From IMG/VR virus record IMGVR_UViG_3300039412_001255, positions 1 through 23,637 of that record: a stretch of 23,637 bases of DNA; one strand, 5' to 3'. How positions within the stretch are numbered: the first letter of the stretch is position 1; the number at the start of each line of letters is the position of its first letter. Both the position numbers and the translations under genes were made by a program. Source of the DNA: a virus. Positions 4,815 through 16,336 of the stretch are shown here, in pieces. The notes beneath the pieces are model-generated. The model ran no database searches. It worked only from the letters and a program-made list of their open reading frames with translations, and was not told where the DNA came from.

Positions 4815-4828
4815 GCCGAACTAGAGGC

Positions 4829-4836
4829 TTTAAATA
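4829..4836 (+). promoter_or_regulatory. TATA box for the SpeD-SET gene
   Basis: TTTAAATA preceded by GAGGC lies 26-27 nt before the ATG at 4859, the spacing seen for leaderless genes throughout the window. Confidence 0.7.
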
Positions 4837-4858: not shown

Positions 4859-5671
4859 ATGTCTGAGACTGAAGGCACTCATGAGTTTGTAGGGCATCAC
4901 GCCTTCGCAGACTTCTACGGATGTAAGGGAGACCTAGATGACAAGGAGAAGATGGAAGAGGCAATCTCATTAGCCATCGAAGCCGCAGACATGGATGAGG
5001 TCAAAACCGATGTGGTCAACTTCAAGCCACAAGGGACGACAGCCATCTCTATCATCACTCAATCTTCTGTCACTATTCACACATGGCCAGAGTCCGATGG
5101 TATGTTAGTGGATGCTATAACCTGTGGGCCTCACGACCCTCACAAAATTATCGAGACCCTGAAGGAGATTTATCAACCTGAGAAGGTCAACGAGTGGAGT
5201 GTAGAAAGGGGAGAGGCAAGTAATGAAGTGAAGAGGCTAGAAGAGGAAGACCGAGAGACAGACGTTGCTCCCATTCCTGTAAGATTTCCAGACGAGAAGA
5301 CTAAGGTGACGGGTGAGAGCGTTGAGGTCAAGCCTTGCGAACACGGTCACGGAGTCTTCGCTACTCAGGACTTTGAAGAGGGCGAAGCCATTCAGACCTT
5401 CAAGGCTCCCTTTGTAGAGGGAGACGAAGACCCCTCAAAAGACGGGACAGCCCTCAGAGTCGGTGAGTTGTGGTGGAACGGGCCTAAGTCTGGGACGGGA
5501 GAGGAGTGGGCCAACTTCCTTGACCACAGCGACACGCCCAACGCCAGTTTCTTCGACTTCGACATAGAGAAAGGAACGGGGAGTCTTATAGCGATTCAGC
5601 CTATCGGTAGAGGCGATGAAATCCTCATAGATTATGGGGAGTATGCCCCAGAGAACCTAGAAAGGGCTTAA
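4859..5671 (+). CDS. S-adenosylmethionine decarboxylase-like (SpeD) domain fused to a SET domain
   Basis: Residues 10-118 match bacterial/archaeal SpeD. They show HHAFADFYGC, a SIITQSSVTIHTWPE segment, and VDAITCG ending in VERGE. The pyruvoyl-forming Ser (S69), His (H74) and Cys (C89) of the family are all present, but the usual Glu-Ser-His around the self-cleavage site is Gln-Ser-Ser, so activity may differ. SpeD makes decarboxylated AdoMet for polyamine synthesis; some SpeD homologues have become arginine or ornithine decarboxylases. A charged linker (120-150) leads to residues 152-262, a compact SET domain with GHGVFATQDFEEGEAI, NFLDHSDTPN (219-228) and DEILIDYGEY (253-262), the folds that bind AdoMet and the target lysine. 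If SpeD self-processing occurs, the SET part would be on the alpha chain. The gene has its own promoter. Fusion of these domains is unusual. Confidence 0.85.
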   Translation: MSETEGTHEFVGHHAFADFYGCKGDLDDKEKMEEAISLAIEAADMDEVKTDVVNFKPQGTTAISIITQSSVTIHTWPESDGMLVDAITCGPHDPHKIIETLKEIYQPEKVNEWSVERGEASNEVKRLEEEDRETDVAPIPVRFPDEKTKVTGESVEVKPCEHGHGVFATQDFEEGEAIQTFKAPFVEGDEDPSKDGTALRVGELWWNGPKSGTGEEWANFLDHSDTPNASFFDFDIEKGTGSLIAIQPIGRGDEILIDYGEYAPENLERA

Positions 5672-5696: not shown

Positions 5697-6035
5697 ATGC
5701 CAACGATGGAGTTGATTGTGCCTCTCACCTATGGCGACACCGGAGAGCCAGTTGACGCGGAAGCCTTTATGATTCTTGAAGAGAAACTGATGGACTACTT
5801 CGGTGGCTATACATCCCATTCTATTGAGGGTGGATGGCGCAGTCCTACCGGACAACGCCTTCGTGACGAGAGCGTTAGGTATGTCGCCTCTACCGACCAA
5901 TACGACCCTGAGACTTTTGAGACCTACGCTCGTGGAATCGCTGATGCTGTCAAAGACTATTGGAGACAGCAAGAGGTCTTCTACAAGGTCGGCAAGCAAG
6001 AGGAAATCGAGAAGGATTCAGCAATCTTTATATAG
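5697..6035 (+). CDS. Hypothetical protein (112 aa)
   Basis: The protein starts with a strand (MELIVPLTYGDTGEPV), then a helix ending in FGGYTSHSIEGGWRSPTG (about residues 35-52), and a C-terminal helical part with a final acidic stretch. The order 'strand, helix, F-G-G-x-T ... G-x-W-x-x-x-x-G' resembles a small uncharacterised alpha/beta family found in bacteria, archaea and phages, but I cannot assign a function. The first ATG is 26 nt from the TATA box; an ATG at codon 4 is an alternative. Its TAG stop forms the end of the TATA box of the OB-fold gene. Confidence 0.65.
   Translation: MPTMELIVPLTYGDTGEPVDAEAFMILEEKLMDYFGGYTSHSIEGGWRSPTGQRLRDESVRYVASTDQYDPETFETYARGIADAVKDYWRQQEVFYKVGKQEEIEKDSAIFI
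6027..6034 (+). promoter_or_regulatory. TATA box for the RPA-like operon
   Basis: TTTATATA overlaps the TAG stop (6033-6035) of the upstream gene. Its centre is 26-27 nt from the ATG at 6057 but only about 20 nt from the ATG at 6051, favouring the second ATG. Confidence 0.65.
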
Positions 6036-9439: not shown

Positions 9440-10375
9440 ATGGCAATGACAAGAGAGCAGTTCCCGATAGTTAACACTGGTGCTCTGTTCTATCCAGCAC
9501 TGGCGAAGAGGATAGTAGAACTTACGATGCCCAATCTGGCATTGAAGCCTCTACTTCAGGACTTCTTCATCAAGGTTGGTTCAACAGCCACCATTCCGAA
9601 ACAAAAGGGTGCTCGCGCCAACGCAGTAATCGGAAAGACTGCGGAAGGGGCCGAGATTATGGCCGACTTCACACCTTACGACTCGATTACCGTTACACCT
9701 TACAAGGTGGGTATGAGAGTCCGAGTTACCAGAGAGTTGATTGAAGACCAGATAGTGAACATAGTAGAAGACCAGTTGAAGAGAGCCGCGAGACGGGTGG
9801 TCATGACGATTGACCAAGACGTTGAGAAGGCTCTGAACGCAGGTGCTCAAACCACCTACGGTGTCACTGGAACTTCAGTGTTCATGGATGGAACGCCGGG
9901 AACATTCGCTAACACGATAGGAGTTAACGACATCACTAACGGTATCCAAGTTATCCAGAACTTCATGCTGGAACCTGACACCATTGCGATGAATCCAATG
10001 GCCAATCAGGACTTGGCTAGGATACCTCAGTTTGCCGCACTACTCTTCTTCGGACAGCCCGTATACCAACAGGGACAGGGAACAGTCGTTTCCGCCCCTC
10101 AGTTGTATGGACTGAAGCGCATAGTTACCCCGAACATCCCTCTGACTGATGGAACTGCCAACAGTGGTAGGGCTTACATCCTTGCCGCTTCAGGTAGCAA
10201 CTACTCAGCCGCATACGCCCCGTTGGGCTACTTTGCGACTAAGAGACCCATCAGCGTAGATGTTTGGCCGCAACCGACTTTCGACTCGATAGACACAGTG
10301 ATTACTGCAAGATACGCGCCCGTCATCACATACCCAGAAAGTATTGTGAAGATGACCGACTTGCGGTCTGCATAG
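9440..10375 (+). CDS. Major capsid protein, HK97 fold
   Basis: The 311-aa protein has features of HK97-like capsid subunits. The N-arm runs into VGSTATIPKQKGARANAVIGKTAEGAEI (about 46-73), an E-loop-like segment. DSITVTPYKVGMRVRVTRELIEDQIVNIVEDQLKRAARRVVMTIDQDVEKAL (residues 80-131) contains the 'K-x-G-x-x-x-x-v-T-x-E-L-I-E-D' strand and spine helix typical of the fold. An A-domain with a loop FFGQPVYQQGQGTVVSAPQLYGLKRIVTPNIPL (about 193-228) follows, and a final strand YFATKRPISVDV. The length fits a mature form with a short arm rather than a long fused scaffold, consistent with a separate scaffold gene. It is 20 nt after the decoration gene, with a weak GTGA as ribosome-binding site. Confidence 0.85.
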   Translation: MAMTREQFPIVNTGALFYPALAKRIVELTMPNLALKPLLQDFFIKVGSTATIPKQKGARANAVIGKTAEGAEIMADFTPYDSITVTPYKVGMRVRVTRELIEDQIVNIVEDQLKRAARRVVMTIDQDVEKALNAGAQTTYGVTGTSVFMDGTPGTFANTIGVNDITNGIQVIQNFMLEPDTIAMNPMANQDLARIPQFAALLFFGQPVYQQGQGTVVSAPQLYGLKRIVTPNIPLTDGTANSGRAYILAASGSNYSAAYAPLGYFATKRPISVDVWPQPTFDSIDTVITARYAPVITYPESIVKMTDLRSA

Positions 10376-11936: not shown

Positions 11937-11978
11937 ATGTCCTCTGAATCGGGCTGGAATAGGGTGGGGCTAGAATGA
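11937..11978 (+). CDS. Leader mini-ORF (13 aa) overlapping the giant repeat protein start
   Basis: The ATG lies 29 nt from the TATA box, and the 13-codon frame ends in TGA overlapping the ATG of the giant gene as ATGA (11975-11978). This is the standard geometry for translational coupling. GGGTGGGG near the end of the mini-ORF could be a ribosome-binding site for the main gene. The peptide resembles nothing known. It parallels the 25-codon mini-ORF before the scaffold gene and the 18-codon one before the exonuclease. Confidence 0.4.
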   Translation: MSSESGWNRVGLE

Positions 11979-14900
11979 CTATTGGACAAAAGAACAATAC
12001 TGGTGCTTCCCAAACTTCACTTACAGTCAAAATACTCAGTCTTCCAGCCATAACTACGGTAGTTGGAGATTGGATTGTAGTCTTCGTTTCTTCTCTCATT
12101 TCAGGAGCGTCTCCTGTCTCGTCTATAACCGATACAGCCTTGAATACTTACGTTTATGTTTCAACCATCACTGACTCTCAAGACGCTTCGGAAGGCGACC
12201 TTTGGATGTGCAAAGGCGCGGCCAATGCGAATGCAAGCAATGTCATCAAAGTCACAATGAGTTATAACGGTAGATTCCTTGCCAGCACATCATCTTACAC
12301 AGGAAAAATCAAACTTGGAAATCTTCATACATCCACAGACCCCGGCTCTACTCAGACTACGGCTTCTAACTCGGACACTACACAAGACCCCAATAATTGG
12401 GTTGTTGGCGGCTTTTGCGTTGACAGAGCATCCACACCCTCTGCGACAACGGGCAATTCGAGAGATGCTAGAAGCACGACTGGTGTTGGCTCTATTATGA
12501 TAGATAATACTAGAGCAACGGCGGGTTCTGCGACTATCGCTTGCTCATGGACAAACGGAGCATATTGGGGTGGTGTGATGGCTGAACTCAGAGGCGCACA
12601 AAACGTTAGTGGGAGTATAGGTTCAGGGATAGCAGAGACTAGCACAAAATTGACTCATCAAACTTCAACAGGAGCCATCGGCGGTGCGGCATCCAATACA
12701 TCTTTCACTATGTCTCATCAGACCTCAAAAGGGAGTGTGGGTCTCTCCGACACTACGGCCTACAACTTTACTCATCAAACTGTCTCTGGTTCCATTGGAG
12801 ACGCTATCTCTAGCGCAATGAGTATGACTCATCAGACTATGACGGGTTCCATCGGAAGCGCGGCTAATGGGGCAGTTGTAACCAACCAAAAGGTGTATGG
12901 TTCCATTGGAGCCAGCCTTGTTGGAGTGGCTGTCACTTCTGTAATCACATATGTATACGGGGCCATCGGAAGTGCTCTGTCTGGTCTCGCAAACATTACC
13001 AAACAGGTTGTGTCGGGTGCTTTAGGTGCAAGCGCGTCTGGCGCAACCACGATGACCCATCAAGAAGTCTCTGGGTCAATGGGAAGCAACACTCTTGGAG
13101 CACTTGCCATAACACATCAAGAAATAAGTGGAGCCTTAGGTGCGGTCATCTCAGGAGCCGTCAATACAGCACAGAAGGTTGTGGGAGCCATTGGAAGTGC
13201 CATCTCTGGCGCAGTTCAAATGACTCATCAGACTGTCTTTGGTTCCCTTGGAGATGCTATCTCTGGAACAATGGGTATGACTTATCAGACTGTCTCAGGT
13301 GCGGTTGGAAGTATGATAAAGTCGAAGGTTGTCACCAATGACTATGTGTATCTCGAACTGGACGCAGGGATGAGTGCCGCAGGAGAGGTCATAACGCACG
13401 ATGTAGTGACTGGTTCCATCGGAAAGAGCGCGTCTGGAAGCGTAGTCACCAACGATGAAGTGCCGGGTAGTATAGGGGATTCTGCTTCAGGAGCCGTCAC
13501 GATACCCTACCAGACCGCTTCTGGAACAGTAGGAGACAGTGCTTCAGGGGCAATCAACATCACTCATCAAACCGCAACAGGTTCGATAGGAGAGTCTGCA
13601 ACTGGAACAATGGCCACTCACGATACTGTGTTTGGATACATTGGATACACGTTATCTGGCGTGCTACAGATGCTCTCTCAAGCCCTGAGAGGGAATATGG
13701 GAGACAGTGTTTCTGGACAGGTTATAACAACCGATGTAGTGGCAGGAAGCATTGGCGAATCGGTTAGTGCGGCTACCATAATATCCAATCAGACTGCAAG
13801 CGGCAACGTGGGAGACGGTGCATCTGGGTCGGTCATCACCAATGATGAGGTCTTGGGTTCCATAGGAACGTCTGCAAGCGGCCTACCAGTCACTCACGAT
13901 ACTGTCTTTGGAGCCATTGGAAATGCCCTTTCTGGCGTGCTACAGATGCTTTCACAAGCCTTAAGCGGCAATGTTGGAAGCAACGTCACTGGAACGATTG
14001 TCACTTCTGATGTGGTCTCTGGGTCAGTAGGCGGGTCGGCTTCTGGGGCTATAAAGATAACTCAACAGATGGCACAGGGGTTGGTGGGAGCCAATGCAAG
14101 TGGAACGATTGCGCTCACTTTCCAGAATATAGTGGGTTCTATAGGAAGTGCCATCTCTGGAATAGCCGTTCCCTCTAGTATCACGCAGGTATTCGGATAC
14201 CTTGGGAGTGCCATATCTGGTCTGTTAGGGATTACTCACCAAGAGATAGAAGCAGGAATTGGTGAAAGCGGCTCTGGCCAAGTGATGACAGCAGATGTCG
14301 TGTCGGCTTCGATAGGCGCGGTTGGCTCTGGTGGATTCGAGATAACGCATCAGGAAACCGTTGGCGCGGTAGGAGATGATGCTTCCGGTGCTCTGGCTGT
14401 CACCCATCAGGAAGTCATTGGCTCATTGGGCAATTCTCTAGCAGGGACGTTTGCGATACTGTCCCAATTTATGTCCGGTCTATTAGGAACCGATACAACT
14501 GGAACGGTGGTCACTAACGACACTGTAAGTGGCTCGATAGGCAACACGGCCACTGGCGAGTTGGCTGTCACTCATCAAGTGGTCTCCGGCTCTGTCGGTG
14601 GCTCTCTAGTTGGGGCATTTGAAGTGCTGTCCCAAGCCGTGTCTGGATTCTTGGGAGCCGATACCATTGGCCAAGTTGTGACCAACGACTTTGTGAACGG
14701 AACCATCGGAAGCAACATCCTTGGTGTAGTGTTTACTGCACGCGAAGTCTTTGGATACATCGGAAGTGCTATCTTTGGGTCAGGGATAACCAATGATGTA
14801 GTGGAAGGAGCCATCGGTGGAGAGGCCAGTGGAGCAATCGAGATAACCTCTCAGACCGCATCTGGGTCAATCGGAAGTGACCTCACAGGTCTAGCGAATG

Positions 14901-16336
14901 TGATATACCAAGCCGTAAGCGGCCTCTTAGGTAACTCTGCTTCAGGAACAGTGGTCACTGGCGATGTAGTGAGTGGTGCTCTGGGCAATGACGTTTCAGG
15001 AGTGACTGATGTAACGCACCAAGAACTTAGCGGAAGCACCGGAGCCAGTGGCTCTGGACAGGGTGTGACTCATGATGTAATCGGAGTCAATATCGGTGCA
15101 AAAGGGGCTGGCGCGGTTGTGACCGGGGATGTAGTCTTAGGAGAGGTCGGTATCTCAGAAACAGGAGTGTCTATCACTAATCAGGTAGTGGGCGGAACTA
15201 TAGGCGAGTCTACAACCGAGAAGGTGGTCACACATGATGTAGTCTTTGGAACCATCGGCGCAGGGATACAGACTGGACTCTATCCCAAGTTCATAAACAT
15301 CGCCATAACCGCGACTGTCATAGTCCACGACTTGGTGTATGGAGCGATTGGTCTGTCTGCCTCTGGGTCTGGCTCGACACGACAGGTGGTCTCTGGAAAG
15401 GTTGGAACGAGTGGAACGGGCGCGACTCTTGTGACTCACCAAGAGGCAAGCGGCCAAGTTGGAACCAGTGCAATTGGTGTAATCCATACCTTGAGCCAAC
15501 TTGTAAACGGAGCGATTGGTGGCTCAATTCTAGGCAAGGTCATAACGAAGCAGAGGGTCAAGGGAACTATGGGTGTGTCTGAAACTGGCCAGACCTCTGT
15601 GACTTCCCAAGTTGTGACTGGCTCTGTTGGAGCCAAGGCAACCGCAGTCGAGATACTGCACGACCTTGTAAGCGGGACAATCGGCACTTCGATTCTGGGC
15701 AAGGGCATCACACGCCAAAAGGTCTCAGGGACTATGGGGTTGAATGAGACGAGCACGATGACCATTCCTCACCAAGAGGTCTCCGGCCAAGTTGGGGCTT
15801 CTGTGAAGGCGAAGGAGACGACCTTCGACCTGATAAGCGGGGCCATCGGTGCGGCCATCTCTGAAATCGTGAATACAGGACAGAGGGTAAAGGGAAGCAT
15901 AGGACTCTCTTCTAGCGAGACAACCACCATACCTCATCAGACTGCTCAAGGCTCTATCGGAAGCAGGGTGTTTGGTGTGCTTGATGTGACTCACCAGATA
16001 GTAGGCGGGGCAGTTGGAGCCAGAATAAGCGGAACGCCTAGAACCCATCAGAAGGTCAAGGGAAGCATAAGTGGTGGGACAACTGGCCAGACTGCGGTTA
16101 CGCACCAAGAGGTCAAGGGAGAAATAGGCACTGAGGTCACTGGTAGCCTTGTTACGACTCTTGTTCAGATATTCGGATACATGGGCAGTGGGATTGTTGG
16201 CCAGATGAGGTTTGAATGGAAGGAGTTCCTCAAACTCAAGATACTCTCTGAGGTCAAGAACACTACCCTACAGACCTTCAAGAAGGGCATGAGATTGAGG
16301 GTGAAGCCGGAAGAGAATGAGGACGAAAACCCGTAA
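11975..16336 (+). CDS. Giant repeat-built fibre/adhesin-like virion protein (1453 aa)
   Basis: Residues 1-207 form a jelly-roll-like domain with VGDWIVVFVSS and VSSITDT, matching the middle domain of the 503-aa protein at 215. From about residue 211 to 1410 the protein is a tandem array of about 60 units of roughly 20 residues, of the form G-S-I-G-x-S-x-S-G-x-V-x-(T/I)-T-(H/N)-(Q/D)-x-V-x. Typical units end in THQTVSGSIG or TNDEVSGSIG. Regular Gly and alternating hydrophobic residues suggest a beta-solenoid or repetitive fibre. The position with His-Gln, His-Asp or Asn-Asp could line up along one face. The last 45 residues lose the repeat and become charged (FEWKEFLKLK ... KPEENEDENP), probably an attachment or assembly tail. 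There is no signal peptide or transmembrane segment. A long tail fibre or surface spike is likely. Confidence 0.8.
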   Translation: MTIGQKNNTGASQTSLTVKILSLPAITTVVGDWIVVFVSSLISGASPVSSITDTALNTYVYVSTITDSQDASEGDLWMCKGAANANASNVIKVTMSYNGRFLASTSSYTGKIKLGNLHTSTDPGSTQTTASNSDTTQDPNNWVVGGFCVDRASTPSATTGNSRDARSTTGVGSIMIDNTRATAGSATIACSWTNGAYWGGVMAELRGAQNVSGSIGSGIAETSTKLTHQTSTGAIGGAASNTSFTMSHQTSKGSVGLSDTTAYNFTHQTVSGSIGDAISSAMSMTHQTMTGSIGSAANGAVVTNQKVYGSIGASLVGVAVTSVITYVYGAIGSALSGLANITKQVVSGALGASASGATTMTHQEVSGSMGSNTLGALAITHQEISGALGAVISGAVNTAQKVVGAIGSAISGAVQMTHQTVFGSLGDAISGTMGMTYQTVSGAVGSMIKSKVVTNDYVYLELDAGMSAAGEVITHDVVTGSIGKSASGSVVTNDEVPGSIGDSASGAVTIPYQTASGTVGDSASGAINITHQTATGSIGESATGTMATHDTVFGYIGYTLSGVLQMLSQALRGNMGDSVSGQVITTDVVAGSIGESVSAATIISNQTASGNVGDGASGSVITNDEVLGSIGTSASGLPVTHDTVFGAIGNALSGVLQMLSQALSGNVGSNVTGTIVTSDVVSGSVGGSASGAIKITQQMAQGLVGANASGTIALTFQNIVGSIGSAISGIAVPSSITQVFGYLGSAISGLLGITHQEIEAGIGESGSGQVMTADVVSASIGAVGSGGFEITHQETVGAVGDDASGALAVTHQEVIGSLGNSLAGTFAILSQFMSGLLGTDTTGTVVTNDTVSGSIGNTATGELAVTHQVVSGSVGGSLVGAFEVLSQAVSGFLGADTIGQVVTNDFVNGTIGSNILGVVFTAREVFGYIGSAIFGSGITNDVVEGAIGGEASGAIEITSQTASGSIGSDLTGLANVIYQAVSGLLGNSASGTVVTGDVVSGALGNDVSGVTDVTHQELSGSTGASGSGQGVTHDVIGVNIGAKGAGAVVTGDVVLGEVGISETGVSITNQVVGGTIGESTTEKVVTHDVVFGTIGAGIQTGLYPKFINIAITATVIVHDLVYGAIGLSASGSGSTRQVVSGKVGTSGTGATLVTHQEASGQVGTSAIGVIHTLSQLVNGAIGGSILGKVITKQRVKGTMGVSETGQTSVTSQVVTGSVGAKATAVEILHDLVSGTIGTSILGKGITRQKVSGTMGLNETSTMTIPHQEVSGQVGASVKAKETTFDLISGAIGAAISEIVNTGQRVKGSIGLSSSETTTIPHQTAQGSIGSRVFGVLDVTHQIVGGAVGARISGTPRTHQKVKGSISGGTTGQTAVTHQEVKGEIGTEVTGSLVTTLVQIFGYMGSGIVGQMRFEWKEFLKLKILSEVKNTTLQTFKKGMRLRVKPEENEDENP
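12605..16206 (+). repeat. About 60 degenerate 60-bp coding repeats
   Basis: The DNA repeats with a 60-bp period in frame, each unit encoding the 20-residue GSIG...(T)HQ motif. Copies are diverged at the nucleotide level, with some near-identical blocks such as 13621-13700 versus 13890-13970, where the same stretch of about 20 codons (THDTVFG ... LSGVLQMLSQAL) recurs. That suggests block duplication on top of older single-unit expansion. Confidence 0.8.

Follow-up and report, generated by a model that had tools for sequence, protein, structure and literature searches.

The AdoMet decarboxylase (AdoMetDC, SpeD) of Thermotoga maritima requires Ser63, His68, and Cys83 for self-processing and catalysis (PMC10407285), and of two Glu residues with described roles, one binds the ribose hydroxyls of AdoMet and the other contacts its base (PMC1282579). 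SpeD domains are also found fused to spermidine synthase, to a branched-polyamine synthase, to an aminopropyltransferase (PMC11107197), and to another SpeD (PMC10407285); the AdoMetDC-aminopropyltransferase of Pelagibacter shows that an N-terminal SpeD fusion can be functional (PMC11107197). Viral polyamine enzymes have been proved active (PMC9992855). In SET domains, the Asn and His of the NH motif both have a role, with the Asn binding the AdoMet amino group (PMC1282579). Polyamine synthesis is commonly boosted by viruses. To our knowledge, archaeal viruses are not well known either for manipulating polyamines or for methylating proteins. We describe here a viral protein that joins SpeD to SET, two enzymes sharing one cofactor for different chemistry, and that is encoded in IMG/VR record IMGVR_UViG_3300039412_001255, of which the 23,637 nucleotides analyzed are referred to as the window.

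The SpeD-SET open reading frame (positions 4859 to 5671; this and all features of the protein are on the + strand) runs from an ATG start to a TAA stop and codes for 270 aa (29.95 kDa, pI 4.4). Its AdoMet_dc (class 1b SpeD) domain (residues 14 to 118, 4898 to 5212) is delimited by PF02675, TIGR03330, and the AlphaFold model; it matches PF02675 in Pfam (E 2.7e-24, 86 bits against a cut-off of 25) and the TIGR03330 adenosylmethionine decarboxylase equivalog of NCBIfam (83.7 bits, above the curated cut-off of 75.65), and phmmer aligns the N-terminal half with the AdoMetDC structures of T. maritima and Aquifex aeolicus. Ser69, His74, and Cys89, the residues singled out in the preliminary description, align with T. 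maritima Ser63, His68, and Cys83 and are kept in all of the fusions. Ser69 is the putative pyruvoyl precursor within the predicted self-cleavage site Gln68|Ser69-Ser70 (5060 to 5068), His74 (5078 to 5080) would act in processing and catalysis, and Cys89 (5123 to 5125) would be the proton donor, these roles being those given in PMC10407285. Glu78 (5090 to 5092) aligns with the ribose-hydroxyl-binding Glu (PMC1282579), and its equivalent is conserved across all fusions. Gln68-Ser69-Ser70 occupies the Glu-Ser-His position of T. maritima; the Glu ahead of the cleavage Ser, which makes the base contact in eukaryotic enzymes, is not found, and Gln stands there instead. From the column placement we infer that Gln68 replaces the base-contacting Glu and that Glu78 is the ribose Glu.

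A variable charged linker (residues 119 to 148, 5213 to 5302), with low pLDDT and a length that differs among homologs, leads into the SET domain (residues 163 to 260, 5345 to 5638), which lacks the post-SET Cys cluster and is identified by PF00856 (E 4e-10, 40.5 bits against a cut-off of 22.4) and by Foldseek; phmmer aligns this C-terminal half with vSET of PBCV-1. The SET half keeps Gly163 and Gly165 (GxG), His223, Asn228, and Tyr259 (5633 to 5635), the invariant catalytic Tyr of SET (alignment; PMC1282579), and the stretches NFLDHSDTPN and DYGEY on which the SET assignment had been based are both present. Within Asp222-His223 (5522 to 5527), Asp stands in place of the AdoMet-binding and usually invariant Asn of the NH motif (PMC1282579); it is confined to this virus lineage, with Asn in all 35 other SETs of our alignment A6, and might reduce the methyl transfer of this domain. 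A resemblance between linker and tail (NEVKRLEEE and NEVTKLEQE, 8/20 identical) was set aside as chance or a coiled-coil-like heptad, and none of the defense-system models matches the SpeD-SET protein.

Structure prediction gives both folds. The SpeD domain was modeled with a pLDDT of about 95 (AlphaFold2, 35 sequences) and superimposes on T. maritima AdoMetDC (1tmi and 1tlu) with an rmsd of 1.2 Å and a TMt of 0.86 to 0.87. The SET half was poorly modeled in the first fold, and only its core gained from a deeper SET alignment: with 39 sequences the mean pLDDT is 67.5, the core being good and the SET-I insert poor. In Foldseek searches with this SET model, every significant match in the PDB is a SET-domain enzyme, and those significant viral matches that bear a name are all SET proteins. 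Searched at full length, the model hits vSET as well as human spermine synthase (3c6k), the N-terminal domain of which we take to be AdoMetDC-like.

The fusion is not peculiar to one contig. The full-length protein is present in three further IMG/VR contigs (3300025419_000037, 3300025439_000012, and 3300039258_000198) in a single version 89 to 90% identical to that of the window, and in 3300037843_000452 at 69% identity; these full-length contigs stem from four other metagenomes, so that with the window included the sample comprises three distinct sequence versions. A further contig, 3300039251_000163, carries one end of the gene at 100% identity. Between the window and homolog L002, dN/dS (NG86) is 0.015 for SpeD and 0.14 for SET, and between L002 and L005 it is 0.056 and 0.135 (dS between the window and L005 is saturated or undefined); values this far below 1 in both parts imply that both domains are maintained. 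The surrounding genes are syntenic among the fusion contigs, and one archaeal-type promoter heads the whole reading frame. These independent full-length homologs, the synteny, the purifying selection, and the single promoter establish one viral protein, as the preliminary description had it, rather than a join of two genes, and confirm that the SpeD-SET fusion is real and under purifying selection in both domains. A SpeD tree unites the SpeDs of the fusions in a single long-branched group, the neighbors of which it does not resolve. Directly 3' of SpeD-SET lies a 112-aa gene (5697 to 6035) with 94% and 35% identity in the fusion viruses; it is absent from the locus in relatives that have SET alone.

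Two such relatives are a 105-kb contig (L214), in which the SET protein has 171 aa, and 3300025446_000251 (L200). Their SET-only genes lie between the same neighbors, behind the CTTTAAATAG promoter shared with the fusion viruses, and the proteins are 53 to 55% identical to the window SET; no SpeD domain is found anywhere in the 105-kb contig. Since these viruses use the shared locus and promoter for SET by itself, SET is the resident and SpeD a module that was either gained or lost at its 5' end. SET identities (53.5% between the window and L214, 62.2% between L005 and L214) disagree with those of the capsid (99.4% between the window and L214, 86% between the window and L005), and modules have therefore been exchanged between these viruses. 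The SET-only sisters provide a natural control, in that SET with and without SpeD makes the coupling of the two testable. The L200 gene (7256 to 7771) has an in-frame stop just before FLDHS and is possibly a pseudogene or carries a sequencing error. We also note about 120 mostly stand-alone SET proteins of ∼100 aa in IMG/VR contigs (L132 to L262), many of which share TYRPLPxxLTI...GLGLFA...GGFINHSExPNA, a large and apparently little-described viral SET family.

The SpeD-SET promoter is a TATA-box-like CTTTAAATA(G) (4828 to 4836, + strand), 22 to 30 nt upstream of the ATG, a near-leaderless arrangement; it is conserved in the fusion and SET-only relatives. There are seven CTTTAAATA sites in the window (0.23 expected), several of them some tens of bases upstream of a start codon, and at 1720 to 1800 they form a divergent promoter region serving one gene on the − strand and one on the + strand. 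The window codes for an archaeal-type Ssb/RPA OB protein and for an HK97-type major capsid protein (9440 to 10375, + strand; Pfam Phage_capsid/Phage_capsid_4, PHROG major head protein) that matches a provirus: it has a 43% match in a Thermoproteota genome (G215) together with syntenic protease- and decoration-like genes, and terminase- and portal-like ORFs, both named by eye, adjoin the capsid gene there. The 105-kb contig, with a 99% identical capsid, codes for PolB, a HerA-like ATPase, terminase, portal, and DHH proteins. This is a tailed virus, and it is placed among viruses of archaea because CTTTAAATA promoters are enriched and its capsid kin lie in a Thermoproteota provirus, in agreement with the archaeal setting proposed earlier; the host is an archaeon, probably one of the Thermoproteota. 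A search for AmoA as a host marker gave no match, the controls being likewise silent. In this virus lineage, L118 (5997 to 6884) and L271 (7527 to 8435) have, on the upstream side of the SpeD-SET locus, another major-capsid-like gene that has diverged and is 37 to 44% identical to the main copy with patches up to 66%, and the window also codes for a 1,453-aa degenerate-repeat protein (11975 to 16336; xGSIGxxxSGxxxxTHQT) that is strongly reshuffled between relatives and looks like a fiber or adhesin.

We hold with middling confidence that SpeD-SET is a bifunctional auxiliary protein, in which a self-cleaving SpeD supplies decarboxylated AdoMet (dcAdoMet) and a SET lysine methyltransferase sits on its large subunit. 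The proenzyme would cleave itself before Ser69 into chains of residues 1 to 68 (7.5 kDa) and 69 to 270 (22.5 kDa), the larger bearing the pyruvoyl group as well as SET, and two chain pairs would form the usual SpeD dimer, a dimeric decarboxylase displaying two SET domains. The SpeD part would decarboxylate AdoMet to give an aminopropyl donor for polyamine synthesis, and the SET part would methylate lysine on a viral or host protein, for which the preliminary description had named archaeal histones or Alba as candidates. We favor an active AdoMetDC because the domains score above cut-offs, the catalytic residues are kept, the model lies within 1.2 Å of a known enzyme, and dN/dS is low. Channeled use of AdoMet had been suggested, but close relatives have SET alone at the locus, and since these sister viruses keep SET without SpeD, channeling is probably not obligatory; what the fusion most likely gives is co-expression and dimerization. 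As to where the product would go, no aminopropyltransferase was detected among the window ORFs tested, and both SpeD and spermidine synthase were undetected, among the matches listed, in four of five Thermoproteota genomes with capsid kin, which are of uncertain completeness and belong to hosts of distant relatives; the product might therefore have no obvious use there. Mesophilic ammonia-oxidizing archaea keep spermidine synthase without SpeD (PMC5797428), and a viral SpeD would fill this gap if the host is of that type.

The preliminary description was right that Gln-Ser-Ser replaces Glu-Ser-His, but its use as a pointer to a new substrate does not stand, because Gln is common in cellular SpeDs, one of them fused to spermidine synthase. 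A degenerate DNA scan finds Gln at the pre-cleavage position in 49 cellular loci, a few of them by chance; it precedes the cleavage Ser in 40-odd cellular SpeD homologs, and Q-S-H or Q-S-S SpeDs were read in Desulfobacca, Actinomycetota, DPANN archaea, Electrothrix, and others. In L049/L077, a Q-S-H SpeD and a spermidine synthase (PF01564, E 2.6e-67) form one polypeptide, a setting where AdoMetDC activity is expected. We accordingly rejected Q-S-S as the mark of a dead or re-purposed enzyme, since Gln recurs in cellular SpeDs including SpeD-SpeE; this context suggests that Gln is compatible with a bona fide AdoMetDC and that Glu is not strictly required at this position. Two side observations concern other loci. 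In "Candidatus Electrothrix aarhusensis" (L070, 607 to 1095 and 1480 to 2010, − strand), 385 nt separate a Q-S-S SpeD from a SET gene on its downstream side; because L050 and L024, which are related loci, lack this adjacency, a conserved SpeD/SET neighborhood in bacteria was discarded. In a WWE3 bacterium (PEYT01000021.1; L030, 2031 to 3068), a 346-aa ORF fuses a BpsA_C branched-chain polyamine synthase to a Q-S-N SpeD.

It is unlikely that SpeD is a substrate-shifted pyruvoyl decarboxylase, of arginine or less probably ornithine, with an ordinary SET methyltransferase attached. Arg or Orn is often the substrate of phage SpeD homologs (PMC9992855), and the sequences of arginine enzymes can scarcely be told from those of AdoMetDC (PMC10407285), a near-inseparability that speaks for the shift. 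The latter source gives Gln, Thr, Phe, and Tyr as the diagnostics of ornithine-decarboxylating SpeDs; we read these positions from a Ca. Electrothrix SpeD (L075) that adjoins a carboxynorspermidine-decarboxylase-like gene, and where this has ETSAITGHF..YLDIFSC, the window has TQSSVTIHTWPE..LVDAITC. With the diagnostic Thr, Phe, and Tyr missing at the positions so read, a pyruvoyl ornithine decarboxylase (SpeDC) was rejected. The ribose-binding Glu78 is retained, as are Pro57 and Pro77, either of which may be the Pro that separates AdoMetDC from the arginine enzymes (PMC10407285), and the score above the cut-off of the TIGR03330 AdoMetDC equivalog speaks against a shift.

We likewise doubt that SpeD no longer makes a product and serves the SET enzyme as a module for dimerization or AdoMet binding. 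Precedents are the AdoMetDC-like N-terminal domain of human spermine synthase, which the full-length model matches (3c6k), and the trypanosome prozyme, and the occurrence of SET without SpeD in sister viruses makes SpeD an accessory. Non-catalytic copies would, however, be expected to lose the processing and catalytic residues, which are fully conserved here, and SpeD is the part under the strongest constraint (dN/dS 0.015).

Quite improbable is a coupling whereby one domain's product regulates or supplies its partner, with dcAdoMet made in cis inhibiting or being used by SET, or whereby SpeD blunts host methylation by lowering AdoMet or raising dcAdoMet. AdoMet is common to the two domains, elsewhere the fusion partners of SpeD are users of its product, the SET residue at the amino-group contact is Asp rather than Asn, and dcAdoMet inhibits DNA methyltransferases (PMC6213949). 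Asp222 is also found in the SET-only relatives, though, including the one without SpeD in 105 kb, and so did not evolve for dcAdoMet; the turnover measured for SpeD-family decarboxylases, from the tables of PMC10407285, is slow for depletion of AdoMet. That dcAdoMet from SpeD is an effector of the fused SET or a group donor for it, for example in gating or in aminopropyl transfer to protein lysine, seems very improbable. We know of no SET that uses dcAdoMet. An assembly chimera or annotation artifact, for which nothing speaks except the novelty of the architecture, is practically excluded by independent contigs at 69 to 90% identity, synteny, and purifying selection.

Phage SpeDs are widespread: the SpeD half alone is matched in 110 of 50,697 phage records and in six of 72,556 plasmids (tblastn). 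The SET half alone has no match among the phage records, and no place in the 50,697 phage and 72,556 plasmid records covers 80% of the SpeD-SET query. Among 1,143 cellular genomes, from the phyla of genomes G004, G001, and G005, the fusion is absent from 375 of Desulfobacterota type and 370 of Thermoplasmatota type, and in 398 Thermoproteota genomes there is none among the matches listed, where a fusion would rank top. Literature searches for SpeD fused to SET returned nothing relevant. The architecture, unfamiliar when first described, is thus found in none of the phage, plasmid, or cellular genomes searched (among the matches listed); no source consulted has this combination, both halves are members of known families, and SpeD-SET is a new domain architecture from known enzymes.

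Compared with known systems, the SpeD part has the fold of class 1b SpeD (T. maritima TM0655, 1tlu/1tmi/1vr7; A. aeolicus, 2iii), with the same Ser, His, and Cys, the ribose Glu, and a length of ∼115 aa, and differs in having Gln-Ser-Ser for Glu-Ser-His and a C-terminal SET. Like the viral single-domain SETs (PBCV-1 vSET, 3kma/1n3j, and many in IMG/VR and Caudovirales), the SET part is short, lacks post-SET cysteines, and has GxG, His, and Tyr, but it has DHS for NHS, a longer SET-I insert, and the SpeD fusion. Goe1-SET of Methanosarcina mazei, an archaeal SET lysine methyltransferase whose target is the DNA-binding protein MC1-alpha (PMC3980110), is cellular and without SpeD, whereas the window protein is viral with SpeD. 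Human spermine synthase (3c6k) also has an AdoMetDC-like N-terminal domain on another enzyme, although its second enzyme is a different one and the catalytic residues of SpeD are kept in the window. The SpeD-SpeDC double fusions (PMC10407285) are single-chain SpeD fusions also predicted to process into several chains, with another SpeD, an ornithine decarboxylase, as second domain where the window has SET. The AdoMetDC-aminopropyltransferase of Ca. Pelagibacter (PMC11107197) and the SpeD-SpeE of L049/L077 likewise place an N-terminal class 1b SpeD on an AdoMet-related enzyme; their partner is an aminopropyltransferase that uses dcAdoMet, whereas in the window it is a SET methyltransferase, a partner that breaks the pattern of SpeD fusions.
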